Below, one piece after another: positions 3,705 to 24,495 of a stretch of DNA of 64,000 bases (position 1 is the first letter of the stretch; each line of letters starts with the position of its first letter). A program made the position numbers and the translations under genes. The notes under the pieces are model-generated. The model searched no databases, was not told the origin of the DNA, and saw only the letters and a program-made list of their open reading frames with translations. This DNA is from an uncultured Saprospiraceae bacterium (GTDB lineage: Bacteria > Bacteroidota > Bacteroidia > Chitinophagales > Saprospiraceae), in the NCBI GenBank assembly GCA_937944245.1, contig CALDYY010000005.1, forward strand, positions 1 to 64,000. The letters are read 5' to 3'.

Positions 3705-3732
3705 TCAATTAACAAGTTTTGAGAAAAGTAAA

Positions 3733-3757
3733 GGTCAGGTTGTTAAACAATCTGACC
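3733..3757 (+). other. Hairpin between actA and actB
   Basis: GGTCAGGTTGTT and AACAATCTGACC form a near-perfect stem with one G-U pair and almost no loop. There is no T run after it, so it is not a terminator; it may mark an mRNA processing or stability site inside the operon. Confidence 0.4.
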
Positions 3758-3782
3758 AAAACCACATAAATTATAAGCAAAC

Positions 3783-6700
3783 ATGAAGCTAGAAGATAAT
3801 CAAGAGCTATGGTTAGGGGTCGAGCAACTAAACAATGACCCAGCACTAAAAAGCATTGCTAACCAAGAGTTCGTCGCTTTACCTATCATTCAAGAAATTG
3901 CTGAGGAAAAAATAACAGAGGCACCTGCTTCAAGAAGGGATTTCTTGAAATACTTAGGGTTCAGTGTAGGTGCAGCTACCCTTGCTGCAAGTTGTGATAT
4001 CCCTGTCCGCAGAGCTTTGCCTTATGTTGTAAAGCCTGATGAAATCGTACCAGGTGTAGCTACTTACTATGCTTCTTCTTTTGTTAGAGGAGGTGATTAT
4101 TGCGCGGTATTGGTCAAAACTCGTGAAGGAAGACCCATCAAGATAGAAGGAAATAGCTTATCGCCTGTAACCAAAGGTGGAACAAATGCACGAGCGCAGG
4201 CAAGCGTCTTAGATTTGTATGATACTAGCCGTTTAATGGCACCTTATAAAGTGGAAAACGGTACTTTTGATAAAAAAGCAAAGTTGGATTGGGCAGAAAT
4301 AGATGCCGAGATAAAATCAAAGTTGAATACAGGGGGAGACATTGTAATTATCTCTAACACCGTTTTAAGTCCAACGACAAAAGCAGTCATTGAGGAATTT
4401 AAAGCAAAATATCCAACTACTAACCATATAATTTATGATCCAATTTCTAGTGCTGCTATACTAGAGGCAAATCAAGAAACTTTTGGACAAAACGTTGTTC
4501 CTGCTTATCACTTCGATAAAGCAGAAGTAATTGTTAGCATTGGTGCAGACTTCTTAGGCACTTGGATTTCGCCAATAGAATATGCTGCTGATTATGTGAA
4601 AAATAGAAAGATTGAGCAAACAAAAGGAGCGCATATGTCTCGCCATATTCAAGTGGAAAGCCATATGTCTTTGACAGGTTCAAACGCTGATGATAGAGTA
4701 GTAATTCGCCCTTCTGAACAAGGTGCAGCTATTGCAGTGCTGTATAATGAAGTGGCTACATTAGCAGGTGGTCAGCGCATCACAGTTCCTGTACTGGAGC
4801 AAAAAGCAGCAGATGAACTGAAAAAATATGCAAAAGAACTCTATGATTTTAGAGGTAAATCTCTAGTGGTCTCAGGTTCAAACAATACAGGTGAGCAAAT
4901 ATTAGTGAATGCCATCAATGACTTGTTGGGGAATTACGGCACAACACTTGATTTCAATCATGCTTCTTTACAACGTCAAGGTAGCGATAGGGCTATCTCA
5001 ACTTTAATAGGTCGAATCAATAGTGGCAAAGTGCCAAGTGCAGTTATTATTTTAGATGATGCTAACCCAGCATTTGATTTGCCTAGTAGTGTGAAATTTG
5101 CGGAAGCAATGTCTAAAGTGAAGTTAAAAATTTCTTTTGCGAGCACATTTAATGAAACATCCGCACTTTGCGACTATTTAATGCCGAGTCACCACTACTT
5201 GGAGTCTTGGGGAGATGTAGAGCCTAAGCGTGGCATATTCAGCATTGTTCAGCCAACTATCCGTCCATTGTTCAATACGCGTCAGGCGGAGGAAACCTTA
5301 TTGATTTTGGCAGAAAGTCCAAATTATAACAGTGAGGCAGACCAGCCTTATTATGAATATTTGAAAAATAACTGGTTGACTAATATATTTGAGCGTCAGA
5401 CTAGGTTCAATAGTCAACAAATATTCTGGGATAATTTCCTACATGATGGCGTTTTAGAAACAGAAGTAGCAACTATCGCTACGGCGTTTTCTGGGAATGT
5501 AGCAGATGCTGCTCGTAAGATCAATCAACCGTCTAAAGCTGAATTGGAAGTAGCTTTGTTTGAAACGGTAGGAATTGGTGCTGGACAATATGCTAATAAT
5601 CCTTGGTTACAAGAACTGCCAGACCCAGTTACGCGCTGTACTTGGGGAAATTACTTGCAGATTCCTATTCAATGGGATGGCAACTGGAAGTTCACTGGAT
5701 TTAAAGGACTAAATAATAATGAGGTCTATGGTGAAGCAGATATTGCTACCATTAAAGCAAATGGTGTTGAAGCATCTGTAACTGCTATTAGAACCTTCGG
5801 ATTGAAGCCTACCACCGTAGCTGCTGCTTTGGGATACGGTAGAAACATAGTTGGTAAATCAGGTGAGAATATTGGAACAAATATTCAATCTTGGTTAACT
5901 GTGGATAAAAATGGTAATTTCCAATATTACGCTGACGCTGAATATATGGGTAAGGCAGGTGAGGATAAACGCTTGGCTTGTGTGCAGTATCACCATACTA
6001 TTGGCTTGCAAGAAGAAGAAGGGGGCATCAACATTGATGAAGAGGCAGTAACTACTATCAGAAGAGGTTTTCAAGGGGCTTTAACCAACTCTGTTGTCAT
6101 TAGAAGAACAAACTTGCAAGAGTTAGACCGTTTCGTTCATGGTGAGCATCATGACGATCACCACGAAGGGGAGGCAAGTCATCATGGCAGCATGAAGCCT
6201 TTTGCTGTGAACTATATGGGCTTAAAAGAGGAACGTAAGCACCACCAAGAATTAAACTCCTATCAGTTATATCCTGGACATGAAGACACTTTTAAGTTGG
6301 GACATCACTGGGGGATGCACGTTGATTTGAATGCTTGTATTGGCTGCGGTACTTGTGCAATAGCTTGTATGTCTGAGAACAATATTCCAGTGGTTGGAAA
6401 AACGGAGGTAGGCAGACACCATGAAATGGCTTGGTTGAGAATTGACCGCTACTATTATGGTGATTACGAAACGCCAAACGTAGTATATCAGCCACTTATG
6501 TGTCAACATTGCGATAATGCACCTTGTGAAAATGTATGTCCAGTAGCTGCAACGCCGCACAGTGAAGAAGGTCTGAATCAAATGGCTTACAACCGCTGCA
6601 TTGGTACGCGCTATTGTGCGAATAACTGCCCTTATAAAGTGCGTCGCTTCAATTGGATGGACTATACTACGGCAGATATTTTCCCTGCAAACGAGCCTCG

Positions 6701-7106
6701 TATCAATGGTGAAGAAGTTCCATTCGGTGCAGATAACTTAACTCGTATGGTCTTAAACCCAGATGTCACTGTGCGTTCTCGTGGTGTTATCGAAAAATGT
6801 AGCTTCTGTGTACAACGTATTCAGGCGGGCAAATTAACTGCTAAACGTGAAAATCGTCGTTTGCGCGATGCAGATGTAAGAACGGCTTGCCAAACGGCTT
6901 GTCCAACAGGTGCAATTACATTTGGAGATAGAAACGACAAAAATGGCGAGCTATCGAAGAAATGGCAAAATGAATTGAATTATATTGTGCTAGAGCAAAC
7001 TAATGTGCGCTCTTCTGTCCAATACACAGCCAAAGTGTTAAATAAGCCTTATGCAAAACCAGTTTATGCTGCCAAGGACGACCATAAGCAAGATGCACAT
7101 GGATAA
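3783..7106 (+). CDS. actB: Alternative complex III subunit B (molybdopterin-type domain fused to Fe-S domain)
   Basis: 1107 residues. A twin-arginine motif SRRDFLKYLG near residue 50 is followed by a hydrophobic stretch, so it is exported folded by Tat. The first ~750 residues resemble the molybdopterin oxidoreductase fold (ActB1), which in known complexes has no Mo cofactor. The C-terminal part (ActB2) has ferredoxin motifs: CIGCGTCAIAC, CQHCDNAPCENVC, CIGTRYCANNC and CSFCVQRI with CQTACP, consistent with four Fe-S clusters forming the electron wire to ActA. A His-rich linker (HGEHHDDHHEGEASHHG) separates the two. Very similar in length and order to other Bacteroidota ActB fusions. Confidence 0.94.
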   Translation: MKLEDNQELWLGVEQLNNDPALKSIANQEFVALPIIQEIAEEKITEAPASRRDFLKYLGFSVGAATLAASCDIPVRRALPYVVKPDEIVPGVATYYASSFVRGGDYCAVLVKTREGRPIKIEGNSLSPVTKGGTNARAQASVLDLYDTSRLMAPYKVENGTFDKKAKLDWAEIDAEIKSKLNTGGDIVIISNTVLSPTTKAVIEEFKAKYPTTNHIIYDPISSAAILEANQETFGQNVVPAYHFDKAEVIVSIGADFLGTWISPIEYAADYVKNRKIEQTKGAHMSRHIQVESHMSLTGSNADDRVVIRPSEQGAAIAVLYNEVATLAGGQRITVPVLEQKAADELKKYAKELYDFRGKSLVVSGSNNTGEQILVNAINDLLGNYGTTLDFNHASLQRQGSDRAISTLIGRINSGKVPSAVIILDDANPAFDLPSSVKFAEAMSKVKLKISFASTFNETSALCDYLMPSHHYLESWGDVEPKRGIFSIVQPTIRPLFNTRQAEETLLILAESPNYNSEADQPYYEYLKNNWLTNIFERQTRFNSQQIFWDNFLHDGVLETEVATIATAFSGNVADAARKINQPSKAELEVALFETVGIGAGQYANNPWLQELPDPVTRCTWGNYLQIPIQWDGNWKFTGFKGLNNNEVYGEADIATIKANGVEASVTAIRTFGLKPTTVAAALGYGRNIVGKSGENIGTNIQSWLTVDKNGNFQYYADAEYMGKAGEDKRLACVQYHHTIGLQEEEGGINIDEEAVTTIRRGFQGALTNSVVIRRTNLQELDRFVHGEHHDDHHEGEASHHGSMKPFAVNYMGLKEERKHHQELNSYQLYPGHEDTFKLGHHWGMHVDLNACIGCGTCAIACMSENNIPVVGKTEVGRHHEMAWLRIDRYYYGDYETPNVVYQPLMCQHCDNAPCENVCPVAATPHSEEGLNQMAYNRCIGTRYCANNCPYKVRRFNWMDYTTADIFPANEPRINGEEVPFGADNLTRMVLNPDVTVRSRGVIEKCSFCVQRIQAGKLTAKRENRRLRDADVRTACQTACPTGAITFGDRNDKNGELSKKWQNELNYIVLEQTNVRSSVQYTAKVLNKPYAKPVYAAKDDHKQDAHG

Positions 7107-7174
7107 AATTTTAGAATTGTAAAAAAAACTATTTTACCACTTTGAGGGTGGTGTTAAAAATAAATTATAAAACA

Positions 7175-8608
7175 ATGAGTGCTAAAGTTTCTCCGATTAG
7201 GGAGCCATTGATAAATGGTAATAAAACTTACCATCAGATTACAGAAGACATTTGTGCGCCTACGGAGCGCGTGCCAAGTTTGCCTTGGGTTATTGGCTTT
7301 ATTGTTGCCGTAACTGGTTTGGCGTTGTATGTATTTTGTCTAGCTTGGACTATTTGGTTCGGTATAGGTACATGGGATTTGAACAGAACCATTAACTGGG
7401 GCTGGGACATTACTAACTTCGTTTGGTGGGTCGGTATCGGACACGCAGGAACGCTAATTTCTGCTATCCTTTTGTTATTTCGTCAGAAATGGCGTACAGG
7501 GGTAAACCGAGCAGCAGAAGCAATGACTATTTTCGCTGTGGCTTGTGCAGGTCAATTCCCGCTCATTCACATGGGGCGTTTGTGGTTGGCTTTCTTTATT
7601 TTCCCTTATCCAAACACAAGAGGTCCGCTGTGGGTGAACTTTAATTCTCCACTACTTTGGGATGTATTTGCGATTTCAACGTACTTGACAGTATCATTAC
7701 TGTTCTGGTACACAGGTCTTGTACCTGACTTTGCAACTGTAAGGGATAGAGCAAAAGGTCTTCGCAAAAAGGTATATAACTTTTTATCTTTTGGTTGGAC
7801 AGGCTCTGCTAAGCATTGGCAACGCTGGGAGTCCTTATCATTAGTGTTAGCTGGTTTATCAACACCGTTGGTACTTTCTGTTCACACAATTGTGAGTTTT
7901 GACTTCGCCACATCTGTCATTCCCGGTTGGCATACCACGATTTTTCCTCCCTACTTCGTGGCAGGAGCTATTTTTTCTGGTTTTGCTATGGTGTTAACGC
8001 TAATGATAATCGCAAGAAAAATATTCAAACTAGAGGACTATATTACATTGGCGCACATTGAGTCTATGAATAAGGTTATCTTATTAACGGGTACTATTGT
8101 AGGTGTAGCTTACTTGACTGAGCTCTTCGTGGCTTGGTATTCTGGTTATCTGCCAGAGCAATGGGCGTTCTACAATCGTGTATTTGGTCCTTACTACTGG
8201 TCATATATTGGTATGATGACTTGTAATGTGTTATCACCACAAATTTTCTGGGTGCGCAAGTACAGAAGAAACATCGTTATCACTTTCGTATTGTCCATTT
8301 TTATCAATATCGGTATGTGGTTTGAGCGTTTTGTAATTATTGCTACCACATTAGCACGCGACTATTTACCATCAAGTTGGAGTTATTACACGCCTACTTG
8401 GGTGGAAATTGGTTTATTTGTGGGTACACTAGGATTATTCTTCACTTTATTCTTAATTTTTGCAAGAGTGGCACCAGTCATTGCAATCGCTGAAGTAAAA
8501 AGCATTTTAAAAACGGCTGGAAATCAATATGTTGGACCTGATGCAATACACCATCACCACGACCACGAGGTAAAAACAGTAGCAGAAGAGATTAAAGCAA
8601 TAAAATAA
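7175..8608 (+). CDS. actC: Alternative complex III subunit C, NrfD-like quinol-oxidising membrane subunit
   Basis: 477 residues from ATG 7175 (MSAKVSPIREPL); an upstream in-frame TTG at 7142 would add a leader not seen in the family. About ten membrane helices, with a His-rich hydrophilic tail (HHHHDHEVK). NrfD/PsrC family; in alternative complex III it holds a menaquinol site and docks on the ActB Fe-S part. Conserved polar segments such as GIGHAGTLISAILLLFRQKW and GQFPLIHMGRLW are in the helices that line the quinol pocket in the family (inference by position). Follows actB by 68 bases. Confidence 0.93.
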   Translation: MSAKVSPIREPLINGNKTYHQITEDICAPTERVPSLPWVIGFIVAVTGLALYVFCLAWTIWFGIGTWDLNRTINWGWDITNFVWWVGIGHAGTLISAILLLFRQKWRTGVNRAAEAMTIFAVACAGQFPLIHMGRLWLAFFIFPYPNTRGPLWVNFNSPLLWDVFAISTYLTVSLLFWYTGLVPDFATVRDRAKGLRKKVYNFLSFGWTGSAKHWQRWESLSLVLAGLSTPLVLSVHTIVSFDFATSVIPGWHTTIFPPYFVAGAIFSGFAMVLTLMIIARKIFKLEDYITLAHIESMNKVILLTGTIVGVAYLTELFVAWYSGYLPEQWAFYNRVFGPYYWSYIGMMTCNVLSPQIFWVRKYRRNIVITFVLSIFINIGMWFERFVIIATTLARDYLPSSWSYYTPTWVEIGLFVGTLGLFFTLFLIFARVAPVIAIAEVKSILKTAGNQYVGPDAIHHHHDHEVKTVAEEIKAIK

Positions 8609-8620
8609 GCAATAAAATAA

Positions 8621-8650
8621 ATGTTGCTTTCAAAGTATGGAAAGCAACAT
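8621..8650 (+). other. Hairpin between actC and actD
   Basis: Perfect 11-bp stem ATGTTGCTTTC / GAAAGCAACAT with an 8-base loop, 18 bases before the actD start. It is followed by A, not T, so it is not a terminator; possible mRNA stability or processing element. Confidence 0.5.
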
Positions 8651-8667
8651 CATAAAAAAATAAAACA

Positions 8668-9207
8668 ATGGCAGCAACAGTAAATAAAGAAGTATTATAT
8701 GGGGTTTATGATGATGAAGAAATCCTATTAGATGCCATCAAAGAAGCAAAAAGAGCGCATCTTGAAATCTGGGATGTGTTCTCACCATTTCCTGTGCATG
8801 GATTAGACCCACTACTAGGATTATCGGAATCGCGCCTACACATTGCAGGGTTTATCTATGGTGCAATTGGTACACTGACTGCGTTTTTATTTATGACTTG
8901 GGTATTCACAAGAGATTGGCCTATGATTTTTGGCGGTAAGCCTTACTGGTCAGTGCCATCTTTTATTCCAATAACTTTTGAATTGACCGTACTTTTTGCA
9001 GCGGTAGGTATGGTGGTTTCTTTTTATATTGTAAATGGTCAAGGTCCTGGTGTAAATAACGCTATCTTGGATGAGCGCATTACAGATGATAAATTCATTA
9101 TTGCTTTCAGCGTGAACAATTATTCAGAGGAAGAAAAGGAAAAGTTAAGTCAATTCCTAAGTGGAACTGGGGCTTCTGAAGTCCTCACTAAAGAAATGCC
9201 TGCATAA
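8668..9207 (+). CDS. actD: Alternative complex III subunit D (DUF3341)
   Basis: 179 residues with two membrane helices (about residues 62-81 and 103-124) and soluble ends. The pattern LYGVYDDEEILLDAI near the start and SPFPVHGLD in the middle is typical of the DUF3341/ActD family. It is a structural subunit that links the membrane core to ActE and the other peripheral parts; no cofactor is expected. Confidence 0.9.
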   Translation: MAATVNKEVLYGVYDDEEILLDAIKEAKRAHLEIWDVFSPFPVHGLDPLLGLSESRLHIAGFIYGAIGTLTAFLFMTWVFTRDWPMIFGGKPYWSVPSFIPITFELTVLFAAVGMVVSFYIVNGQGPGVNNAILDERITDDKFIIAFSVNNYSEEEKEKLSQFLSGTGASEVLTKEMPA

Positions 9208-9235
9208 ACTTATAAAACAGAAAAAATTAAGAACG

Positions 9236-10048
9236 ATGAATAAGCGACTAAAAAATATATTTTTCACATTGTTAATATCTATTGTGCTCTATTCCTGCCA
9301 AAATTCGGTAGGCAATAAAACGGGTAGTGAATACATGCCAGACATGGCGCATTCCATCGCCGTAGAAGCTACAACTTATAACTATTACTATCTAAATACT
9401 TGGGACGAGCAAAGTACAGTTAAGTTGAAAGATATGGCAGGTGGACGTTTACCTGTTAAAGGTACTGTACCCAGAGGATACGCTGCGATGGAAACGATAG
9501 AGGATGCCGTTAACACGCCGAATGCAATTGTAGTGCCAACTAATGGAAGCGTACCTTATCACTACGACGATACAGAGGAAGACAGAGCTAGAGCAACAGC
9601 AGATATACAAACCATTCCATTCCCGATTACTAAAATAGGTTTGGAAAAGGGAAAAGAACTTTACAATATATTTTGTGCAGTTTGTCATGGTACTGCTGGA
9701 AACTTCAATGATGGCATTTATGCTAGTGGCATCTATCCACTTGCTCCAGCAAACTTGATAAATGAAGAGTTCACACAAGCATCACCAGGAAGATATTATC
9801 ATGCTTTGATGTATGGTAAAAATGCAATGGGGGCTTACAAGGATAAAATTTCTTATGAAGAACGTTGGCAAGTCATTCACTATATTTATTCTCTACAAGC
9901 TAAAGAGAAAAAGTTAGTGTATGGCGAGGAAAAAAACACACTGAATAGCTATGCTATTCCATTAGCAGCAATGGCGAAGCCTTCGACAGATAATGAAGTA
10001 GCTCCTAATGAGGCAAAAGATAACAGTATGTTATCATCTATCAAATAG
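9236..10048 (+). CDS. actE: Alternative complex III subunit E, monoheme cytochrome c lipoprotein
   Basis: 270 residues from the ATG at 9236. An earlier in-frame start at 9161 would overlap actD and hide the lipobox, so it was rejected. Signal sequence ends in VLYSC, an SPII lipobox, so the protein is lipid-anchored on the periplasmic side. One heme motif, CAVCH, and a downstream Met-rich loop (HALMYGKNAMGAYKDKI) that can supply the axial ligand. It is the likely exit point of electrons from the complex, beside ActA. Confidence 0.92.
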   Translation: MNKRLKNIFFTLLISIVLYSCQNSVGNKTGSEYMPDMAHSIAVEATTYNYYYLNTWDEQSTVKLKDMAGGRLPVKGTVPRGYAAMETIEDAVNTPNAIVVPTNGSVPYHYDDTEEDRARATADIQTIPFPITKIGLEKGKELYNIFCAVCHGTAGNFNDGIYASGIYPLAPANLINEEFTQASPGRYYHALMYGKNAMGAYKDKISYEERWQVIHYIYSLQAKEKKLVYGEEKNTLNSYAIPLAAMAKPSTDNEVAPNEAKDNSMLSSIK

Positions 10049-10070
10049 TGTTAACACTGATAATGATAAC
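10030..10070 (+). other. Nested inverted repeats at the actE end
   Basis: GTTATCA (10030-10036) pairs with TGATAAC (10064-10070), and inside them AGTGTTAACACT (10047-10058) is a perfect 12-base palindrome. The element overlaps the actE stop codon and lies in the 88-base gap before actF. It has no T run. Role unknown; mRNA folding is the simplest guess. Confidence 0.4.
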
Positions 10071-10136
10071 TCGAAAGAGATAGAATTATTTTAATCAGAT
10101 ATTTACATATTATAAGCAACATTTAATCCTAGTGTA

Positions 10137-11429
10137 ATGGATAATACATTTAAGTTCGAATCAAAACAAAAAACATTTTTGCTAGGTGGTATGGCATTGG
10201 GATTGCTTTGCTTAGCCATCACCTTTCTAACAGATGATAGTCTGCACACTCGTTTCTGGACGAATTATTTACATAATGTTACTTTTTTTACAGGCATTTC
10301 CTTCATGTCAATGTTTATTCTAAGTGCATTTCTCATCGCTTGGGCAGGTTGGTACACCTATTTTAAGCGCGTGTGGGAAGCAATGACACAATTCATGATA
10401 GTAGGATTAGTATTAATGTTGCCTGTGGTTGCTGGAGTGTGGCTAGGTTTTCACCGACTTTATCACTGGGCAGATGCGGATTCTGTGGCGGGGGACGAAA
10501 TACTGCAATGGAAAAGTAGCTTTTTGAATCCTACAACATTTACTATAGCTTCTGTGCTGATTGTTGCCATTTGGTATTTCTTTGCCAATGCCTTCCGAAA
10601 AAGTTCTTTGGCAGAAGACCAAGGAGATGGTAGTTATGATCAAAATAAACGACAAACAGTTTTAGCATCTATATTTTTGCCAATAGCAGGTTTCTCCAGT
10701 GCTGCCGTGATTTGGCAGTGGATTATGTCTATTGATGCACATTGGTACAGTACATTATTCGCTTGGTACTGTGGTGCAAGTTGGTTTGTTTCAGCTATTG
10801 CGATTACGATTCTATTGTTGATTTATTTGAGAGGAAAAGGTTATTATAGTGATTTGAATGCTAGTCATTTGCACGATTTAGGTAAATATTTATTTGCATT
10901 TAGTATCTTTTGGACTTATTTATGGTTCTCCCAATTCATGTTAATTTGGTACGCAAATGTAGGTGAGGAAACAGTTTACTTTCAAACCCGTAGAGACGAG
11001 TATCCAGCATTATTTTTCTTGAATTTGGGCATCAATTTTCTAATTCCTTTCTTCGTATTAATGAGAAATGATACGAAGCGAAAAGCAGGTACAATGGCTT
11101 TTGTGGCTGGTATAGTCATATTAGGACACTGGATTGATTACTTTTTGATGATAAAGCCAGGTGCTTTGCATACTGCTCATGAGTTGATGGGGCATGCTCA
11201 TTCCGCAACTGCTGATGCAGCACATGCAGGTGAACATCACTCTACTATTTTAGCGGGTTTTCATTACCCTGGATTGTTAGAATTAGGCACAATGCTTGGT
11301 TTCTTGAGTCTGTTCTTGTATGTGTTTTTTAATCAACTGGCTAAAGCGCCATTGATAGCTAAGAATGATCCGTATTTAGAAGAGAGTTTGGCTCACCATA
11401 TAGAGCCACCTTATACAGATACTTTCTAA
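10137..11429 (+). CDS. actF: Alternative complex III subunit F, NrfD-like membrane subunit
   Basis: 430 residues with about ten membrane helices; a truncated relative of ActC. Contains a His-rich periplasmic or loop segment (HTAHELMGHAHSATADAAHA) between late helices. In known complexes ActF is the second NrfD-like subunit, packed against ActC, and has been proposed to take part in proton movement. It is the last act gene; ctaC starts 113 bases later on the same strand, so oxidoreductase and oxidase are probably co-expressed and may form a supercomplex. Confidence 0.92.
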   Translation: MDNTFKFESKQKTFLLGGMALGLLCLAITFLTDDSLHTRFWTNYLHNVTFFTGISFMSMFILSAFLIAWAGWYTYFKRVWEAMTQFMIVGLVLMLPVVAGVWLGFHRLYHWADADSVAGDEILQWKSSFLNPTTFTIASVLIVAIWYFFANAFRKSSLAEDQGDGSYDQNKRQTVLASIFLPIAGFSSAAVIWQWIMSIDAHWYSTLFAWYCGASWFVSAIAITILLLIYLRGKGYYSDLNASHLHDLGKYLFAFSIFWTYLWFSQFMLIWYANVGEETVYFQTRRDEYPALFFLNLGINFLIPFFVLMRNDTKRKAGTMAFVAGIVILGHWIDYFLMIKPGALHTAHELMGHAHSATADAAHAGEHHSTILAGFHYPGLLELGTMLGFLSLFLYVFFNQLAKAPLIAKNDPYLEESLAHHIEPPYTDTF

Positions 11430-11542: not shown

Positions 11543-13069
11543 ATGATAGGTTTAATAATTTTAGGCATCATTGCATTGGTTGCCATAGTTACAGTTCAGA
11601 TAGGTCGGTTAACAGAGTTATCGGCTAAAATTAGAGGTGAAGAAGAAGTACAGCTTCAAATAAATCGCAGCAGTGCAAACGGCTTAGTGTTATTTGGTGC
11701 AACCTTCCTAGTCGCTTGTGTCTGGTCTGCTCTGTATTATAAGAATTATATGCTAGGTTATGGACCGCATACATCAGCTTCTGTTCATGGAGCATCTTTG
11801 GATAGTCTGTTCAATTGGACATTATTCTTTACTGGAGTTGTGTTCTTTGCTACGCAGATTGCTTTATTTTGGTTTGCCTATAAATACAGAAGAACTAAAA
11901 CAAGTAAATCAGTCTTTTTAGACCACGATAATAAGTTGGAATTAATCTGGACTGCTATTCCTGCCGTAGTAATGACTTTTCTGGTAGTAGGTGGATTAGA
12001 TGCTTGGAACAAAGTAATGGCAGATGTTCCAGAGAATGGTACTGCTGTTTTAGTTCCTCAAAGCGATGAAGAGTACTTAGAAATAGAGGCAACAGGGTAT
12101 CAGTTTGCTTGGGATTTAAGGTATCCAGGTGAAGATGGCAGATTAGGAACGAAAGATTTCCGATTGATTAATCTAGGCAACAATCCTCTCGGTCAAGATT
12201 GGACAGATGAAAAGAATTTGGATGATTTCATGCCAGGTGAAATTGTATTACCGGTTGGTCGTACAGTGCGTGTTAGAATCACGGCAAAAGATGTATTACA
12301 TAACTTTTATCTGCCTCATTTTCGCGTAAAGATGGATGCTGTGCCAGGCATGCCGACTTATTTTGTGTTTACACCACAAGTAACAACAGAAGAGTATAGA
12401 GAAAGACTAAAAAATACACCCGAGTACAACCAGCCAGACCCAGATAGTCCAGATAAAATGAAATGGGAAACCTTTGAGTTTGAATTGGCTTGTGCAGAAC
12501 TATGTGGTAAAGGGCATTACAGCATGCGTAGAGTCGTAAAAGTAGTAGAAGAGCGCGAGTATAAGAATTGGTTGTCAAAGCAGCAATCTTATTATAAAAC
12601 TCAAGTGAGAGGGACTGATAGCGACCCAAATTTGGATAAGGTGTTGTCCTATGAAATAAAAGAACGTCGTGAAGAATTTAATCAAGCAGTAGAAAAGGCA
12701 TTGACTGCTGAGGTTACCGACGATAAAGTGATAAGATTGAATTATGTAACTTTTGAAACAGGTTCGGATAAGTTAACAGATTTGTCAAAATACGAATTAG
12801 AGAATCTTATTGAAGTGCTTGGACGTTATCCCAATATGAAGATTGAAGTAGCTGGACATACAGATAGTACAGGTGAGGAAGAAAGTAATCAAACTTTATC
12901 AAATAATAGAGCTAACGCAGTTTTTAATTACTTAGTAAACAACGGTAAAATTGATGCCAACAGGTTAACTGCTAGAGGATATGGACAGAATCGCCCGATT
13001 GACACTAACGATACAGAAGAAGGGCGTTCAAAAAATAGAAGGACAGAGTTCAAAATATTGACACAGTAA
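11543..13069 (+). CDS. ctaC: Cytochrome c oxidase subunit II fused to an OmpA-type peptidoglycan-binding domain
   Basis: 508 residues, far longer than the 250-350 usual for the family. Four predicted membrane helices (about 2-20, 46-64, 90-112, 136-153); the first two are an extension also seen in other Bacteroidota as I recall. The cupredoxin part carries the CuA ligands His253, Cys317, Glu319, Cys321, His325 and Met328 (CAELCGKGHYSM). After a charged linker (about 335-392) residues 395-508 form an OmpA/MotB domain: YVTFETGSDKLT, GHTDSTG and LSNNRANAV, ending in RSKNRRTEFKI. Asp441 and Arg456, 15 residues apart, match the two residues that hold diaminopimelate in OmpA domains. This domain sits where caa3 oxidases carry a cytochrome c domain, so it could tie the oxidase to the cell wall. 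Confidence 0.93.
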   Translation: MIGLIILGIIALVAIVTVQIGRLTELSAKIRGEEEVQLQINRSSANGLVLFGATFLVACVWSALYYKNYMLGYGPHTSASVHGASLDSLFNWTLFFTGVVFFATQIALFWFAYKYRRTKTSKSVFLDHDNKLELIWTAIPAVVMTFLVVGGLDAWNKVMADVPENGTAVLVPQSDEEYLEIEATGYQFAWDLRYPGEDGRLGTKDFRLINLGNNPLGQDWTDEKNLDDFMPGEIVLPVGRTVRVRITAKDVLHNFYLPHFRVKMDAVPGMPTYFVFTPQVTTEEYRERLKNTPEYNQPDPDSPDKMKWETFEFELACAELCGKGHYSMRRVVKVVEEREYKNWLSKQQSYYKTQVRGTDSDPNLDKVLSYEIKERREEFNQAVEKALTAEVTDDKVIRLNYVTFETGSDKLTDLSKYELENLIEVLGRYPNMKIEVAGHTDSTGEEESNQTLSNNRANAVFNYLVNNGKIDANRLTARGYGQNRPIDTNDTEEGRSKNRRTEFKILTQ

Positions 13070-13105: not shown

Positions 13106-14971
13106 ATGGCTGACGTATTAAATAAAACTCAACAAGAAGAAGAAGTATTGATTGAGGAACTAGGCTACGATGATGAGTTCCATGAACACCATCATGGAGA
13201 TAAATATCAGTCTAATTTCATCACTACTTACATTTTTAGCCAAGACCATAAAATTATCGCTCGTCAGTTCTTGATTACAGGTATGATTTGGGCGATTATT
13301 GGTGGCTTAATGTCATTAGTTTTCCGTTTACAACTTGGTTTCCCCGCAGAAAATATTTCTTGGTTAAAGCCATTCTTAGGTAAGTGGATTCAAGTGAGTG
13401 GAGAAGGTGTAGGAACACTAGACCCACAATTCTACTACGCTTTGGTAACGATGCACGGTACTATCTTAGTATTTTTCGTGCTAACAGCCGGCTTGAGTGG
13501 AACATTTTCGAACTTGCTTATTCCATTGCAATTAGGTGCTAGAGATATGGCATCACCATTATTGAACATGTTATCTTACTGGTTCTTCTTTTTGTCCAGT
13601 GTAATCATGTTTTATTCTTTGTTCATTAGCACAGGACCATTCTCAGGGGGTTGGGTAGCTTATCCGCCATTGAGTGCGCTGCCACAAGCGTCTATGGGTT
13701 CTGGTGCAGGTATGACACTCTGGACAGTGAGTTTGGTTTTCTTTGTAGTTTCTGTACTACTAGGAGGGATAAACTACATAACAACAGTATTGAACTTGCG
13801 TACCAAAGGAATGACTTTGTGGAGAATGCCACTAACTATTTGGGCGTTTTTTGTAACAGCTATCATTGGTTTGTTATCATTCCCAGTATTAGTTTCTGCG
13901 TTTTTGTTATTAATGTTCGACAGAGGTTTAGGAACAAGTTTCTATTTAAGTGAGATATTCATCGGTGGTCAAGCATTAGACCATGTAGGTGGTAGCCCTA
14001 TTTTGTATCAGCATTTGTTCTGGTTCTTAGGACACCCAGAGGTATATATCATTATTTTACCTGCAATGGGTATTGTTTCAGAGGTATTGTCTGTGCATTC
14101 TCGCAAACCAATTTTTGGTTACAAGGCAATGGTGTTTTCTATACTAGCGATTGCATTTTTATCTTTCTTAGTTTGGGCACACCACATGTTTATGTCAGGT
14201 GTCAACCCATTCATTGCCAATATCTTCGTAATTTTCACATTGATTATTGCTGTACCTTCAGCAGTAAAAGTGTTTAACTGGATTACGACGCTATACAGAG
14301 GTAATGTGCAGTTTAATTCAGCAAGTTTATTTGCGATTGGTTTTGTATCCATGTTCATCTCTGGTGGTTTGACGGGTATATTCTTAGGAAACTCTGCTAT
14401 TGACATTCAACTGCACGATACTTATTTTGTAGTAGCTCACTTTCACATTGTAATGGGTATAGCAGCTTTCTTTGGTATGTATGCAGGGGTGTATCATTGG
14501 TTTCCTAAAATGTTCGGTCGTTTTATGAACGAAACACTAGGTAGAATTCATTTCTGGGGAACAATCATTGGTGCTTACGCTATTTTCTGGCCTATGCACT
14601 ATTTGGGCATGGCGGGTGTACCAAGAAGATATTACAGTTTCGATGCTTTTGAAACATTTGAAAGTTTCGCTGGCTTGAACCAATTCATTACAGTAGCAGC
14701 TATTATTACCTTTGGTTTCCAGTTGTTAATGGTAATTAATTTCTTCTATAGCATTTGGTATGGTAAGAAGGTAGAGGATAAAAACCCATGGAAAGCTACT
14801 ACATTAGAGTGGACGACACCTATCAAGCCTGGTCATGGTAATTGGGAAGGTAACATCCCTTCAGTACAGCGTTGGGCGTACGATTACAGAGAGGGTAGAG
14901 ATGGAAAGGATTTCATTTCTCAAATTGAGCCTTTGACAGAAGAAGAATTGAAACAAGGGGTAGCACATTAA
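13106..14971 (+). CDS. ctaD: Cytochrome c oxidase subunit I
   Basis: 621 residues, about twelve membrane helices, with a His-rich N-terminus (FHEHHHGDKY). Key motifs are in place: VTMHGTILVFFV (low-spin heme ligand), FLGHPEVYIIILP (CuB His and the Tyr cross-linked to it), WAHHMFMSG (two further CuB His) and HDTYFVVAHFHIVMG (high-spin and low-spin heme ligands). This is an A-type heme-copper oxidase that reduces oxygen and pumps protons. It follows ctaC by 36 bases. Confidence 0.96.
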   Translation: MADVLNKTQQEEEVLIEELGYDDEFHEHHHGDKYQSNFITTYIFSQDHKIIARQFLITGMIWAIIGGLMSLVFRLQLGFPAENISWLKPFLGKWIQVSGEGVGTLDPQFYYALVTMHGTILVFFVLTAGLSGTFSNLLIPLQLGARDMASPLLNMLSYWFFFLSSVIMFYSLFISTGPFSGGWVAYPPLSALPQASMGSGAGMTLWTVSLVFFVVSVLLGGINYITTVLNLRTKGMTLWRMPLTIWAFFVTAIIGLLSFPVLVSAFLLLMFDRGLGTSFYLSEIFIGGQALDHVGGSPILYQHLFWFLGHPEVYIIILPAMGIVSEVLSVHSRKPIFGYKAMVFSILAIAFLSFLVWAHHMFMSGVNPFIANIFVIFTLIIAVPSAVKVFNWITTLYRGNVQFNSASLFAIGFVSMFISGGLTGIFLGNSAIDIQLHDTYFVVAHFHIVMGIAAFFGMYAGVYHWFPKMFGRFMNETLGRIHFWGTIIGAYAIFWPMHYLGMAGVPRRYYSFDAFETFESFAGLNQFITVAAIITFGFQLLMVINFFYSIWYGKKVEDKNPWKATTLEWTTPIKPGHGNWEGNIPSVQRWAYDYREGRDGKDFISQIEPLTEEELKQGVAH

Positions 14972-15049: not shown

Positions 15050-15967
15050 ATGAATCAAGGAAGAACAAACTCAATAGCACGTGGTGTTGAAACAAAAACA
15101 TTTGTCGTAGGGCATCACATTGCTGACTTCAATGCTTTGGTAAAATTAAGGCTTACTTTAACAGTTGTGTTTTCCTCTGTTATGGCGTTTTTGATTGCGA
15201 CGCAGGCAGTAATTAATCTTTCTCATGTTTTAGTGTTAACCATCGGCGGTTTTCTGGTAACTGGTTCAGCTAATATTATGAACCAAGTGCTTGAGCGCGA
15301 TTACGATAAACTAATGAAGAGAACTGCTAACCGTCCAATTGTACAGGGGCGTATAGAAGTACCAAATGCTGTATTGCTCTCCGGTTTAATGAGTTTATTT
15401 GGAATTACTTTTCTAGCTTTATTTAATGCAGGTACAGCCCTTTTGGGTATGGTGGCTTGGATGAGTTATGCTTTCATGTACACACCTTTAAAAAGAGTAA
15501 GTTCAGCAGCAGTAACTATTGGTGCAATATCAGGTGCATTACCAACTCTTATTGGCTGTGTAGCAGCTCAAGGCGGTATAACCTCGCTAGGGTTAACTCT
15601 TTTTGCCATACAATTTCTTTGGCAATTTACCCATTTTTGGTCAATTGGCTGGTTAGGTTTTGAAGATTATAAGAAAGCAGGTTATAAATTTATACCTCAA
15701 AATCAACAAGGAAATGTAGATAAGCGGATTGCTCATCAGGCATTATTATTTGCAATTTTGCTTGTGCCAGTTAGTGTACTTCCTTACTATTTAGGGATTA
15801 CCGGTGGTATTTCAATGGTATTTGTGGGAATATTAAGTCTTTTGTTTGCCTATTTCGCTTGGAATTTTTTGAAAAAATTTGACCGAAAAGCAGCATTGCA
15901 GTTGATGTTTAGTTCATTTTTCTACATTCCAGTAGTGTTATTGTTGTATTTTTTTGATAAACTATAA
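15050..15967 (+). CDS. ctaB: Protoheme IX farnesyltransferase (heme O synthase)
   Basis: 305 residues, a UbiA-type membrane prenyltransferase with about eight helices. The first Asp-rich motif is clear: NQVLERDYDKLMKRTANRP (about residues 82-100), which binds Mg-farnesyl diphosphate. It attaches a farnesyl chain to heme B to make heme O, the precursor of heme A for the oxidase encoded around it. Starts 12 bases after a terminator-like hairpin. Confidence 0.94.
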   Translation: MNQGRTNSIARGVETKTFVVGHHIADFNALVKLRLTLTVVFSSVMAFLIATQAVINLSHVLVLTIGGFLVTGSANIMNQVLERDYDKLMKRTANRPIVQGRIEVPNAVLLSGLMSLFGITFLALFNAGTALLGMVAWMSYAFMYTPLKRVSSAAVTIGAISGALPTLIGCVAAQGGITSLGLTLFAIQFLWQFTHFWSIGWLGFEDYKKAGYKFIPQNQQGNVDKRIAHQALLFAILLVPVSVLPYYLGITGGISMVFVGILSLLFAYFAWNFLKKFDRKAALQLMFSSFFYIPVVLLLYFFDKL

Positions 15968-16006
15968 TAAAACATTACAAAAAGCATAAAATCAATAAAA
16001 TTGAAT

Positions 16007-16585
16007 ATGGAAGTAGCAGCAAGACAAGAAAAAGTTAGAAATAAAATAGCGTCAAAGAAATTCACACTTTATGTGGCTTGTGCTAGCATCTTAATGATGT
16101 TTGCTGCATTTACGAGTGCTTATGTGGTAAGACAGGCAGCGGGTAACTGGCTTGAGTTTAAATTACCTGCTATTTTTTGGTACAATACAGCAGTTATTGT
16201 TGTTAGTAGTATTGTATTACAGTTATCTTTTTATAATTTCAAACGAGGAAATACCCTGATATATAGAAGTTTATTATCTTTAACTTTCTTATTGGGAGTA
16301 TTATTCGTTGTTCTGCAATATCAGGGTTGGTTAGCACTGGAGTCCATTGGCGTAGAATTGACTGGGAATCCATCGGGGTCTTTTATTTATGTTATCTCGG
16401 GTGTTCACGCAGCTCATGTACTTGGTGGTTTAGCTGCTTTGAGCGTAGCCATGATTCATGCCTTTGCCTTAAAGCACAAAGTGACACCTGCAAGAAAATT
16501 GCGCTTTGATTTAACACTAACTTACTGGCACTTTGTAGGTTTTCTTTGGATATATCTAATAGTGTTCTTTACTTTGCAGGGATAA
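16007..16585 (+). CDS. Cytochrome c oxidase subunit III family protein (short, first of two)
   Basis: 192 residues from ATG 16007 (an in-frame TTG two codons earlier is less likely). Five membrane helices and the subunit III signature GVHAAHVLGG together with YWHFVGFLWIYLI at the C-terminus. Bacteroidota oxidase operons often carry two subunit III-type genes side by side; this one is the shorter, and the longer one follows after 68 bases. Which of the two sits in the finished enzyme cannot be told from sequence. Confidence 0.88.
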   Translation: MEVAARQEKVRNKIASKKFTLYVACASILMMFAAFTSAYVVRQAAGNWLEFKLPAIFWYNTAVIVVSSIVLQLSFYNFKRGNTLIYRSLLSLTFLLGVLFVVLQYQGWLALESIGVELTGNPSGSFIYVISGVHAAHVLGGLAALSVAMIHAFALKHKVTPARKLRFDLTLTYWHFVGFLWIYLIVFFTLQG

Positions 16586-16653: not shown

Positions 16654-17550
16654 ATGGCAACAGGTACAACTCTAGTCGAAAAAGACTTACATCACAGTGA
16701 GCATCATGAACACCACATAGAAGAGGGGTGGGACGGTGGCGACAAAAAGCCCTTTGCAGCCTCTTATGGTAAGTTGATGATGTGGTACTTCTTACTTTCG
16801 GATGCCTTTACTTTTGCAGGTTTCTTAATTGCCTATGGGGCGTTGCGTTTCAGTATGCCAACTTGGCCTGTTGCAGACGCAGTATTCTCCACTGCGCCAT
16901 TAGGTATTCACAATCTTTTCCCTGGCGGTAAAGCACCACTCATTTTTGTAACCTTCATGTCTTTCCTTTTGATTGTTAGTTCTGTAACAATGGTACGAGC
17001 GGTGCAAGAGGGGCGAAGAGAAAACAAGCAAGGAGTAGTGTTTTGGATGGTACTGACTATTATTGGTGGCATTGGATTCTTGAGCTGTCAGGCTTGGGAA
17101 TGGGCAAACCTAATTGGTGAAGAACACATGTCCGTTACCACAAATCCTTTCGGCACTCATAGGTTCGATGGCGTTTATTTAGATGATGAGCATGGACATC
17201 CTTACAAAGATGGTGAGGTAAGAGAAACATTTGAGGCAGGTGAGACCTACCTAATACATAAAGAAGAAGGTGAGTGGTTGCAACGCCGTTATGTAACCAA
17301 TGAAGGTGTAGAAGGCAAACAATCATTCGGTCCTTTCCAATTTGGTGCATTATTTTTCTTCATCACAGGTTTTCATGGATTTCACGTATTTTCCGGCATA
17401 GTCTTCTTGATTATTATTGCTTTGAATGCTGGAAGTGGTTTATATGTGGAAAGGCGAAATGGTTACGAAATGGTGGAGAAAATAGGCTTATATTGGCACT
17501 TTGTAGATTTAGTGTGGGTGTTTGTATTCCTTGTTTTCTATTTATTGTAG
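16654..17550 (+). CDS. ctaE: Cytochrome c oxidase subunit III
   Basis: 298 residues. N-terminus His/Glu-rich (HHSEHHEHHIEEG), then membrane helices with MMWYFLLSDAFTFAGFLIAYG, a soluble insert of about 80 residues between helices (EEHMSVTTNPFGTHRFDGVYLDD and on), and the family motif FHGFHVFSGIVFLI followed by YWHFVDLVWVFVFLVFYLL. Structural subunit that stabilises subunit I and the oxygen channel. The soluble insert is longer than in mitochondrial-type subunit III. Confidence 0.92.
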   Translation: MATGTTLVEKDLHHSEHHEHHIEEGWDGGDKKPFAASYGKLMMWYFLLSDAFTFAGFLIAYGALRFSMPTWPVADAVFSTAPLGIHNLFPGGKAPLIFVTFMSFLLIVSSVTMVRAVQEGRRENKQGVVFWMVLTIIGGIGFLSCQAWEWANLIGEEHMSVTTNPFGTHRFDGVYLDDEHGHPYKDGEVRETFEAGETYLIHKEEGEWLQRRYVTNEGVEGKQSFGPFQFGALFFFITGFHGFHVFSGIVFLIIIALNAGSGLYVERRNGYEMVEKIGLYWHFVDLVWVFVFLVFYLL

Positions 17551-17599: not shown

Positions 17600-18010
17600 A
17601 TGAGCCAAATATCTTACGAGCAAGCCAAAAAAGATGTCTTTAGAGGCTTTTGGTTGCTTTTTATCATTACTATCATTGAAGTTGTTATATCCCTTTTTGG
17701 AAAAGGTTGGTTAGGTATTCCTGTACATAAAATTTGGTGGCTCTACGGTATTGCTGCCTTAGTAATTATTGGACTTTCTATTTACAAAGCCAATTATATT
17801 ATCATGGAGTTTATGCACTTAGGGCATGAGGTAAAAGGATTGAAATTCAGTGTGTTATTGCCAACTGCACTTTTGATTTGGGCAATTATTGCTTTCTTTC
17901 AGGAAGGAGATTCCTGGAAAAATAGAAGGGAATTGATTAAATCAAAAAATGCTATCCAAGTGGATGAAGCTAGTCAAAAAACGGATGATGCGCTCGATTT
18001 GAGAGACTAA
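17600..18010 (+). CDS. ctaF: Cytochrome c oxidase subunit IV (prokaryotic)
   Basis: 136 residues with three membrane helices and a charged tail. The helix segment YIIMEFMHLGHE is the signature of prokaryotic subunit IV (COX4_pro). Small accessory subunit of the oxidase. A strong terminator begins 15 bases after the stop, closing the main operon. Confidence 0.9.
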   Translation: MSQISYEQAKKDVFRGFWLLFIITIIEVVISLFGKGWLGIPVHKIWWLYGIAALVIIGLSIYKANYIIMEFMHLGHEVKGLKFSVLLPTALLIWAIIAFFQEGDSWKNRRELIKSKNAIQVDEASQKTDDALDLRD

Positions 18011-18024
18011 TTGCAAATGCAATT

Positions 18025-18057
18025 TAAAAAAGGCGAGCTTTTCAGTTCGCCTTTTTT
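18025..18057 (+). terminator. Rho-independent terminator after the oxidase operon
   Basis: An A run, then GGCGA paired with TCGCC across a 10-base loop, then six T. The A and T runs lengthen the stem. It lies between the subunit IV stop and the next gene, and it argues against an upstream start for that gene. Confidence 0.85.
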
Positions 18058-18112
18058 ATTTCAAACCTTCCATAATGAGTTTTGTTATCCAATTAGTCAA
18101 TTAAAGCATTTC

Positions 18113-18715
18113 ATGATAAAAAAAATCATTCAGTTCTCAGCATTAGGGCTTATGCTCGTAGTATTACCGTTAGGTTCGCTTATTTATTTGCGAAAAGGTT
18201 ATTTTGAAAGATATGATGCCTTGCAAATGTTAAAAGACTACGGTAAAGTACCCATTTTTGAACTTCGGCAGCAGGATGGTAGCCCTTTCACTAATGCTAA
18301 TTTGAAAGGTCGCTATGCCGTAATTGGAAAAATAGAATCTTTCGATGAGGCAAACCCTGTCATTGAACAATCAAAAAAGTTGTTTAAACAATTTGGTGAT
18401 TCCAAAGAAATGGCACTTTGTACTTATGTCGCAGATTTTGATTCCATAAAGATTCACGATTTTATGGAAAAAGTAGCTTTTCAAGACACTGTTAGTCGTT
18501 GGTATTTTTTACATGGCGATGATGCTATTACTAGCATTTTGGCAAATCAACCAAGTGAAATACTGGCGTTGGTGGATACTGCTTCAGTTGTAAGGAATTT
18601 TTACAAAGTGTCTGATAATCAGTCAATTGGTGAAATGGCAAAACATATTGCTATGTTTGTTGCTCCATTAAAGAGACGGGCTGAATTAGAGTTTAAAAGG
18701 GAAAAAGAAAAATAA
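18113..18715 (+). CDS. SCO-like thioredoxin-fold protein lacking the copper site
   Basis: 200 residues from ATG 18113; a longer reading frame from 18011 crosses a terminator and was rejected. N-terminal membrane anchor (about residues 1-25), then a thioredoxin-like domain: VPIFELRQQDGSPFTNANLKG resembles the start of SCO1/SenC domains, and its place between subunit IV and the DUF420 gene is where Bacteroidota oxidase loci keep SCO1. The CxxxC motif that binds copper is absent (the segment reads YAVIGKIESFDEANPVIEQ) and the distal His is not evident. It cannot load CuA in the usual way; it may be a structural relic or a partner of a true SCO encoded elsewhere. Confidence 0.6.
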   Translation: MIKKIIQFSALGLMLVVLPLGSLIYLRKGYFERYDALQMLKDYGKVPIFELRQQDGSPFTNANLKGRYAVIGKIESFDEANPVIEQSKKLFKQFGDSKEMALCTYVADFDSIKIHDFMEKVAFQDTVSRWYFLHGDDAITSILANQPSEILALVDTASVVRNFYKVSDNQSIGEMAKHIAMFVAPLKRRAELEFKREKEK

Positions 18716-19787: not shown

Positions 19788-22700
19788 TTATCGCACCAGC
19801 GTAACATCACCTTTTCCAGTAAAAGTTTCTGAGACACTTCTCAATCGGATAGTGTAGTAATAAACATAAACATCAGAAGCCAATTCTGTGTTGCCATCAC
19901 CATTTTTAGTACCATCCCAACCATTGTTAATGTTGTTGCTTTGGAATACTAAATTTCCCCAACGACTAAATATTTTCATATCGAAAGATTCAATCTCTAG
20001 CCCTTGTGGATAAAGCACTCTGAACACATCATTTCGCTGATCGCCGTTCGGTGAAAACGCATTTGGTACTTCAAATGTCACAGGAAGCACTACTATTGAG
20101 ATGTTTCTTATCGTCTGGCAACCGTTTGGTGTAGTTATCCGCACTTGATATTGAATAAGACCTGCCACTGCTGCGTCAGTATTATCTGAAGTAGTACGTT
20201 CGCCACTATCAATAAGTCCACCGTTGGCAAACCATTCGATTTTAGCATTTCCCAAGTTTGTACCCAACTCAGCTTCCAAGAAAATAGTTGTTCCAGCAAA
20301 AACAGTGTCAATTACCCGATTATTTGCGTTTCTAGCAACTAGATTAGTAATTGGAATAACCGCTTCTGGCGTGACTGTAACACGCTGTGTAAGTATGCCA
20401 CATGCGTAAGTGAACGTTACTTCGTAAGTGGTTGTTTCTGTATCATTTATAGTTATTGCTCTGTTGGTGGTTATCACAGCTGGATTGCCTAGCACACGCC
20501 ACGCTACATTACCAGCAACAGGACTTTGTAAAGTCAAAGTAGTTGAACTTCCTGCGCAATAAGTAAGATTGCCTGTCACTTGAATGTTTTGTTCACTTAA
20601 TACTTGAATGACAACAGAAGTTTCTACTGCTGGGCAATCACCATTCTGAGCGATTACCCTGTAAGTAGTGGTAACTATTGGACTAACTTCGGGCGTTGGA
20701 TTGGTTACTGTACCAAAAGTTGGGTCAGTAGAAGTCCAAATGTAAGTTGCTCCTGGCGTAACGCTTGTATTTAGTCGAACAGTTTCTCCAGGACAAATGA
20801 TGGTATTTGCTGGTGGGCTAATCATCGGAGGAGGTAGGGATTCTATTGTGACTGAAGCAGTTCCCGGGCACATTTTATCAGACATAACTTGAACATTGTA
20901 TGAACCTCCCTGCGATGCAACAGGGTTTGGGCAATCCGTACAACTTAGTCCCTCCGTTGGTGTCCACATGTAAGATGATATTGGCACATTATTTAAAGGG
21001 GCAACAGTTAGATTAACTCCACTGCCACCTGCACAAATCTTGGCATCTTGTGGTAATATTTCTACTTCTGGTAATGGATTTACTTCAATTCTTGCAGAAT
21101 CATTGGAAACACAAACGCCATTGGTTGTTTTTCTGAGATAAAATCGAGTAGTATCGGGCGTTACCACTAAGTTAAATAGACTATCTGGTGTTTGTTGCCC
21201 ATCAGAAGGTGTCCACTCGAATTTGATATTAGGAAATTCAAATGGCTCATAGGTAGTTGAAGTAAGAATGACAAATTCACCTTCACAAATGGTCGTATCC
21301 GCAGGCATTATGCTGAGGTCAACGGGAAGGGAATCCACGCTAATCACAATAGAATCTATTGCTATACAACCTTGATTTTCAATTTGTACAAAATATTTGG
21401 TTAATTGACTTGGCGAAGCGGTTACCCTTAATCCAACTGTGGTAGAAAGCGACCCATCATTAGGAGTCCAAGTAGGTTGCACTGTGGAAGGTTGTGTCCT
21501 CAAGGAATCTAGTCGTAATTCAATGGAAGTGCCTTTGCAGATTGATGCGTTTACTGTTTCTGGTGCAAACACAACAGCAGCAGGAGTAACGTTAATCTGA
21601 ACATCTTGAATTACCTCACAAGCACCTCTTGTGGCAGTTAAGCGATATACACCTGAATTTTGAGGTCTTGCAGTAGTATTCAGTTGGTTAACGTTCTCGA
21701 AATCACGGGTATCTACTCCTGACCATAAGTAAGTTACTCCATTTTCTGGCTGTGAAAAAGAGAGGGTCAATGTTTCATTTTGGCAAATTGTAGTGTCCTC
21801 CAAAATTTGAAACACAGGCGGCGTAAACACTTCTACCAAAACACTATCCAAAGAAGCCAAAGGGCAAATACCATTTTCTACGGAAACAAAGTATTTAGTG
21901 GTCTGTGTAGGCGTAACTTGGGGGTTGCGTTCATTGGAGATAAATCCCTCAGGCACAGAACGCCAAGTGTATCTTAAATCACCTGAATTATTGTTGCTTC
22001 CTAAGAAAAGGCTATCCCCAAGACACAACTTTGCATCGTTTGCAACCTCAAATTGAGGTGCGGGTTGTGAAAGTACGGTTAATCTAAATTCATCCGATGT
22101 TGGACAATCAGGTGTATTTAAGCGAACAGAAATAGTATAAGTCCCTGCAACAGAAGAAGTAATAATAGGATTAGGACAATCAGTGCAACTTAATGCCACT
22201 TGTGAAGGTGCTGTCCATTCATAAGTGGCACCAACAAAATCTGAACCAGCATTTACTTGAAACGATTCGCCTAGACAAATCGTCACGTCGGGTCCTGCTT
22301 CGACACCGAGAACTTTTACTTCTACTGCAACAGTGTCCTGTGTACAAACACTAGAAACAATTGCTTTGTAAATCGTTGTTTCTGTTGGTGAGGCAATGGG
22401 ATTTAAGCAATTAGCACAAGAAAGCGATTCACTAGGCGACCAAACGATGTTATCAAGACCAGGACTTAGAAGCAGTTGAGCAGAACTACCTCTACAGATT
22501 TCTGCATCTTCTATTAGTGGTTTCACTGGAATACGTGCTAGCACTTCTGGTGTTGAAGGCGACCAATTCACCAGAATACCATTATTTTGAATGTCATTGC
22601 CAAAATCATTAATTAACACTACATAAACTTGTCCTTCTTGCACGTCAATCGTGCGCACAAAATCATCGCCAAGTGGACTAGGGAGTAGTGGAGTTAAGCA

Positions 22701-24380: not shown

Positions 24381-24495
24381 TCGCACAATTTGTATTTGTA
24401 TTTGTATTTGTTAAGGGAAAACGCTTTTGTTATTGAAGAATCTGTTTACATTATTGTCAATGTGATGAAAAATATCCCTTAGAACTCTCGTTAGC

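Follow-up and report, generated by a model that had tools for sequence, protein, structure and literature searches.

The stretch of DNA analysed here (64,000 nucleotides, hereafter the window) carries an operon for alternative complex III (ACIII) and an aa3 oxidase, and within it lies a gene for a cytochrome c oxidase subunit II that ends in an OmpA domain (11543-13069). The operon genes described below are all on the forward strand. The ACIII genes for ActA to ActF (2295-11429) are directly upstream of the fusion gene and encode ActA (2295-3704), a multihaem cytochrome whose residues 29-120 form an N-terminal cytochrome c domain; ActB (3783-7106), which has molybdopterin-enzyme-like and Fe-S parts; ActC (7142-8608), of the NrfD family; ActD (8668-9207); ActE (9161-10048, with the ATG at 9236 as its more likely start), a mono-haem cytochrome c that has no OmpA domain here; and ActF (10137-11429). 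ActE (PDB 6f0k_E and 6btm_E) and ActF (6btm_F, E 1.6e-62) match solved ACIII subunits of Rhodothermus marinus and Flavobacterium johnsoniae, and an N-terminal cytochrome c domain has been described for ActA of F. johnsoniae (PMC5928083). On the other side of the fusion gene are cytochrome c oxidase subunit I (COX1, 13106-14971), a UbiA-family prenyltransferase that is probably the haem O synthase CtaB (15050-15967), a subunit III-like protein (16001-16585), subunit III (16654-17550) and subunit IV (COX4_pro, 17600-18010). The order of the ACIII-aa3 genes is maintained across the operons examined.

Three further genes of the window were noted in passing. The one at 18011-18715 is a conserved member of the operon with zero Pfam or NCBIfam matches, the one at 449-1348 has a weak match to the papain-family cysteine peptidases (PF00112) slightly below the cut-off, and the one at 19788-24386, on the reverse strand, encodes a protein of 1532 amino acids with Ig-like repeats, a CUB domain and a CHU_C type IX secretion signal.

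The fused subunit II is encoded by one uninterrupted frame and is a single protein of 508 amino acids, as judged from its translation, Pfam matches and orthologues. Its transmembrane domain (COX2_TM, PF02790; residues 77-148, 11771-11986) is preceded in the AF2 model by two additional predicted helices (residues 2-29 and 34-70) and followed by the periplasmic cupredoxin domain (PF00116; residues 181-270, 12083-12352). Both Pfam matches are above cut-off, the latter ending at residue 270, which corresponds to position 84 of the 120 in the profile; the CoxB model TIGR02866 also matches with an E-value of 8e-36, yet its 123 bits fall short of the cut-off of 147.7. The six CuA ligands H253, C317, E319, C321, H325 and M328 (12299-12526) are invariant in 40/40 fused homologues, so that the subunit II recognised in the sequence-only reading, which had placed the ligands at these same positions, is upheld. 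More residues separate H253 from C317 here than in textbook subunits II, whereas the C-E-C-H-M spacing is intact.

The OmpA domain and its predicted pocket

The C-terminal part of the protein (residues 396-508, 12728-13066) is a predicted OmpA-type peptidoglycan-binding domain, an assignment based on Pfam, PDB sequence matches, the AF2 model and VIA-align comparisons. It matches PF00691 over all 98 positions of the profile (residues 403-499, E 2.3e-23, 82.8 bits), in agreement with the earlier description of a complete domain at this end, and is the top scorer among the 28 OmpA domain matches of its own genome (86.8 bits). The full-length Pfam match together with the PDB sequence matches rules out chance similarity. 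Neither a cytochrome c match (Pfam) nor a CXXCH motif (translation) is present in this part of the protein. AF2 modelling of residues 337-508 gave a mean pLDDT of 81 and a pTM of 0.76, and superposition of the C-terminal part with VIA-align returned an OmpA_C-like fold, close both to OmpA with bound diaminopimelate (DAP; 3td4, Z 13.4, 2.5 A) and to Capnocytophaga OmpA (5wtp, Z 16.3). Modelling of the whole protein was confident mainly for this C-terminal part, and with a pTM of 0.43 the domain orientation in that model is unreliable. By its sequence and predicted fold, the C-terminal domain is thus a canonical OmpA domain.

Three residues of this domain, D441, N449 and R456 (12863-12910), are predicted to contact diaminopimelate on the grounds of alignment, spacing and conservation. 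The pair D441 and R456, 15 residues apart, had already been singled out from the sequence; both are indeed invariant, and N449 can be added as a refinement, since its counterpart in PorE touches the stem peptide through its side chain. D441 and R456 align, by PDB sequence match, with the diaminopimelate-binding residues D271 and R286 of Acinetobacter baumannii OmpA (PMC12108004), numbered here from the offset of the alignment with a tag of four residues assumed. The spacing of the three residues (8 and 15) is also that of D576, N584 and R591 of Porphyromonas gingivalis PorE, which hold a DAP-containing stem peptide in the crystal (PMC7192894). All three are unvarying in 40/40 fused homologues, among which the mean pairwise identity of the OmpA domain is 49%, and the domain has a dN/dS of 0.06-0.15 (four computable pairs, with synonymous sites near saturation). 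Conservation and dN/dS show that purifying selection acts on the domain. The MurE of the host contains the motif DNPR, which is typical of meso-DAP-adding MurE enzymes.

The CuA and OmpA domains are joined by a linker of about 50 amino acids (residues 347-395 by AF2, 12581-12727), modelled with low confidence at residues 347-364 and then as a predicted helix at about 369-387. The segment from 344 to 395 is 48-60 amino acids long in 39/40 homologues, and the linker has a mean pairwise identity of 35%. MotB/MotS-type proteins are among the structural matches and likewise have a helix ahead of the OmpA domain, a likeness that might point to a sensor, in which the domain would inform the oxidase of stress in the wall or envelope instead of merely holding it. 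Such signalling seems very improbable, since the operon has no recognised signalling partner and the linker is poorly conserved.

Distribution and history of the fusion

Full-length relatives of the fused protein, 54-70% identical to it, come from loci titled Saprospiraceae or Lewinellaceae. A profile built from 32 fused proteins matched at full length solely in Saprospiraceae, in 6/6 members of the family among 395 genomes of the class, and a search of 390 genomes of the phylum found the same six and no other family. Among the matches listed, none from another family reaches past position 409 of 499, and the ones that extend beyond about 380 run through stop codons. A search within Saprospiraceae gave, among the matches listed, more than 150 at full length, in more than 150 genomes. 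These genomes, and the orthologues on independent contigs, exclude chance as well as an assembly error or chimera; the sequence-only reading had considered an assembly error unlikely. One homologous locus (L016) does have a broken frame, probably a sequencing error because the coverage of its contig is just 1.9-fold. The combination of COX2 with PF00691 is a family-wide trait of Saprospiraceae: the fused subunit II was found in 83 of the 118 genomes (out of 150) that could be classified as fused or not, and the remaining 35 have a subunit II without an OmpA domain. Long COX2 frames (450-560 amino acids) elsewhere in the class were considered as further fusions and discarded, the ones examined having long N-termini, short tails and no OmpA domain.

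In a tree of the COX2 core and COX1 with 84 rows, for which Chitinophagaceae and another group of the class served as the root, several fused lineages branch off at the family's base. The tree requires 12 changes of state, a count that cannot by itself separate gain from loss. The fusion was probably gained before or early in the history of Saprospiraceae and then lost many times, and since the domain has apparently been lost so often, the anchor would be dispensable for oxidase function. Where the OmpA domain is missing, the tail of subunit II is short and acidic or proline-rich, or consists of longer, other sequence. A histidine/acidic-rich tail, possibly metal-binding, replaces the domain at L035 and L207, and a Saprospira-type clade (L014, L015, L110, L118, L122, L129 and L130) has a different, helical-looking tail of 139-175 amino acids. 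In one genus (L050 and L051) the OmpA domain of subunit II is present in decayed form, with the pocket aspartate and arginine changed to proline and lysine.

A history of this kind could also be that of a passenger: one chance fusion, tolerated and repeatedly shed, which might well bind peptidoglycan yet would bring no benefit. The dozen or so changes on the tree, the low complexity of many replacement tails and the decayed copies that have lost both the aspartate and the arginine would all fit a neutral history of this sort. It would not lead one to expect invariant pocket residues and a low dN/dS, nor retention by most of the sampled members of a deep family, nor that the domain was gained on ActE too, both inside and outside Saprospiraceae (see below). 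A neutral passenger is therefore quite unlikely.

OmpA domains on ActE

The OmpA domains of subunit II were made into a profile to search 20 operon regions, and 150 Saprospiraceae genomes were then surveyed for an ActE with an OmpA domain. In the 20 regions, ActE bears an OmpA domain in six genomes with a domain-free subunit II, and the wider search brought the number of Saprospiraceae genomes with such an ActE to 12 (L177, L183, L188, L190, L191, L192 and L207-L212), all with a subunit II that lacks the domain. An OmpA domain on ActE is thus found in 12 of the 35 genomes without the subunit II domain, against none of the 83 fused genomes, where no second anchor was seen on ActE (Fisher p 9.8e-8, ignoring relatedness); this exclusivity reflects few independent events, for which an independent-pairs test is without power. 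On the tree, the OmpA domain of ActE requires about 5 changes. In the other 23 of these 35 genomes, ActE too lacks the domain, and a search over about 20 kb around the 13 operons of this kind that were examined found no OmpA domain (E 1e-3). All 14 ActE copies in the tree of OmpA domains retain the GHTD motif and the arginine, and the tree, which is weak for so short a domain, is compatible with a single clade of the subunit II copies and those of Saprospiraceae ActE (p 0.68 against its rejection). The domain of ActE may thus have come from subunit II by transfer inside the operon.

Outside Saprospiraceae, ActE with an OmpA domain is encoded in two genomes of another, distant Bacteroidia family, f109 (L204, 9640-10701; L205, 4396-5439). 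The linker of these proteins differs, being of a DxDxDG type that resembles calcium repeats, and they apparently represent an independent recruitment of the domain. In a third family, f100, an ActE (L206, 9221-10264) has a decayed OmpA domain that has lost the GHTD motif.

In the supercomplex of R. marinus, ActE adjoins subunit II (PMC5928083), and because of this an anchor would emerge in the same region from either subunit. That the domain is confined to subunits at the interface of ACIII and the oxidase could equally reflect docking, in which the domain would bind ACIII (or, from ActE, the oxidase) and so join the two complexes, any binding of peptidoglycan being incidental or absent. OmpA-like domains are able to bind proteins, and the YfiB-YfiR and TolB-Pal complexes are among the PDB matches. 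Docking, however, needs neither the DAP-contact residues, which are kept in 40/40 copies on subunit II, nor GHTD and the arginine, which are kept in 14/14 on ActE, while elsewhere the domain has diverged to about 49% identity. It is for this reason that docking is considered an unlikely main role.

A putative wall anchor and its known counterparts

Collectively these results suggest that the OmpA domain probably tethers the ACIII-aa3 supercomplex to peptidoglycan; from them we infer peptidoglycan binding, a position in the envelope, tethering and a benefit. Subunit II would be embedded in the inner membrane, the CuA domain and C-terminus facing the periplasm, and the flexible stretch and helix of the linker would raise the OmpA domain away from the CuA domain. 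The pocket formed by D441, N449 and R456 would then grip the stem peptide by its meso-diaminopimelate, as the pockets of OmpA, PorE and Pal do. Since the oxidase works with ACIII, one anchored subunit might suffice to hold the whole supercomplex in place, and it would matter little whether this is subunit II, as in most Saprospiraceae, or ActE, as in some. The benefit may lie in keeping the respiratory assembly in place, or in limiting its diffusion and dissociation.

The sequence-only reading had already suggested that the oxidase, and perhaps a supercomplex with ACIII, would be pinned to the wall, and this idea gains support because the OmpA domain is found on ActE where subunit II has none. 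The choice of subunit II or ActE as the carrier suggests that the entire respiratory assembly is pinned. The tether would nonetheless be optional, given its frequent loss and the 23/35 genomes with no OmpA domain on either subunit. We lean slightly towards anchoring of respiration to the wall as a recurrent adaptation, in which Saprospiraceae have one OmpA anchor that is exchangeable between subunit II and ActE and a separate case on ActE has arisen elsewhere in Bacteroidia.

In the usual picture, respiratory complexes diffuse freely in the inner membrane. If the tether is real, some bacteria instead hold their main respiratory supercomplex fixed by means of a built-in and strictly conserved wall anchor, and the natural variants, with the anchor on subunit II, on ActE, decayed or absent, offer a ready comparison for the effects of supercomplex position and mobility on respiration. 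No COX2-OmpA or ActE-OmpA fusion was found in a literature search that paired the oxidase or ACIII with OmpA or peptidoglycan and that covered few subscription journals.

Several known systems offer close parallels. The subunit II of the caa3 oxidases (e.g., Thermus, 2yev) likewise consists of a COX2 core with an extra periplasmic C-terminal domain, and in R. marinus it is a caa3 oxidase that partners ACIII, to which the oxidase of the window is also linked. However, the extra domain of caa3 is a cytochrome c, whereas that of the window protein is an OmpA domain with no haem, and in the window operon it is ActA that has an N-terminal cytochrome c domain instead, as reported for F. johnsoniae. 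The ACIII-aa3 of F. johnsoniae (6btm) is encoded by the same kind of operon with the same subunits, including an ActA with this N-terminal domain; the publications found on it make no mention of OmpA, which here is on subunit II and in some relatives on ActE. A further parallel is the C-terminal domain of PorE, from the type IX secretion system of Bacteroidota (6top), which has the same D-N-R contacts and was solved with a DAP stem peptide, although PorE is an outer-membrane-associated lipoprotein of another system, unlike subunit II of the window. The MotB, MotS and PomB stators and TagL of the T6SS belong to inner-membrane complexes that a C-terminal OmpA domain, placed after a helix or linker, holds to peptidoglycan, but the machine in the present case is a respiratory oxidase, with no known role in force generation or secretion. 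OmpA-anchored machines of the inner membrane, such as those of MotB and TagL, are thus already known, and a terminal oxidase anchored to the wall would apparently be a new form of the same arrangement.
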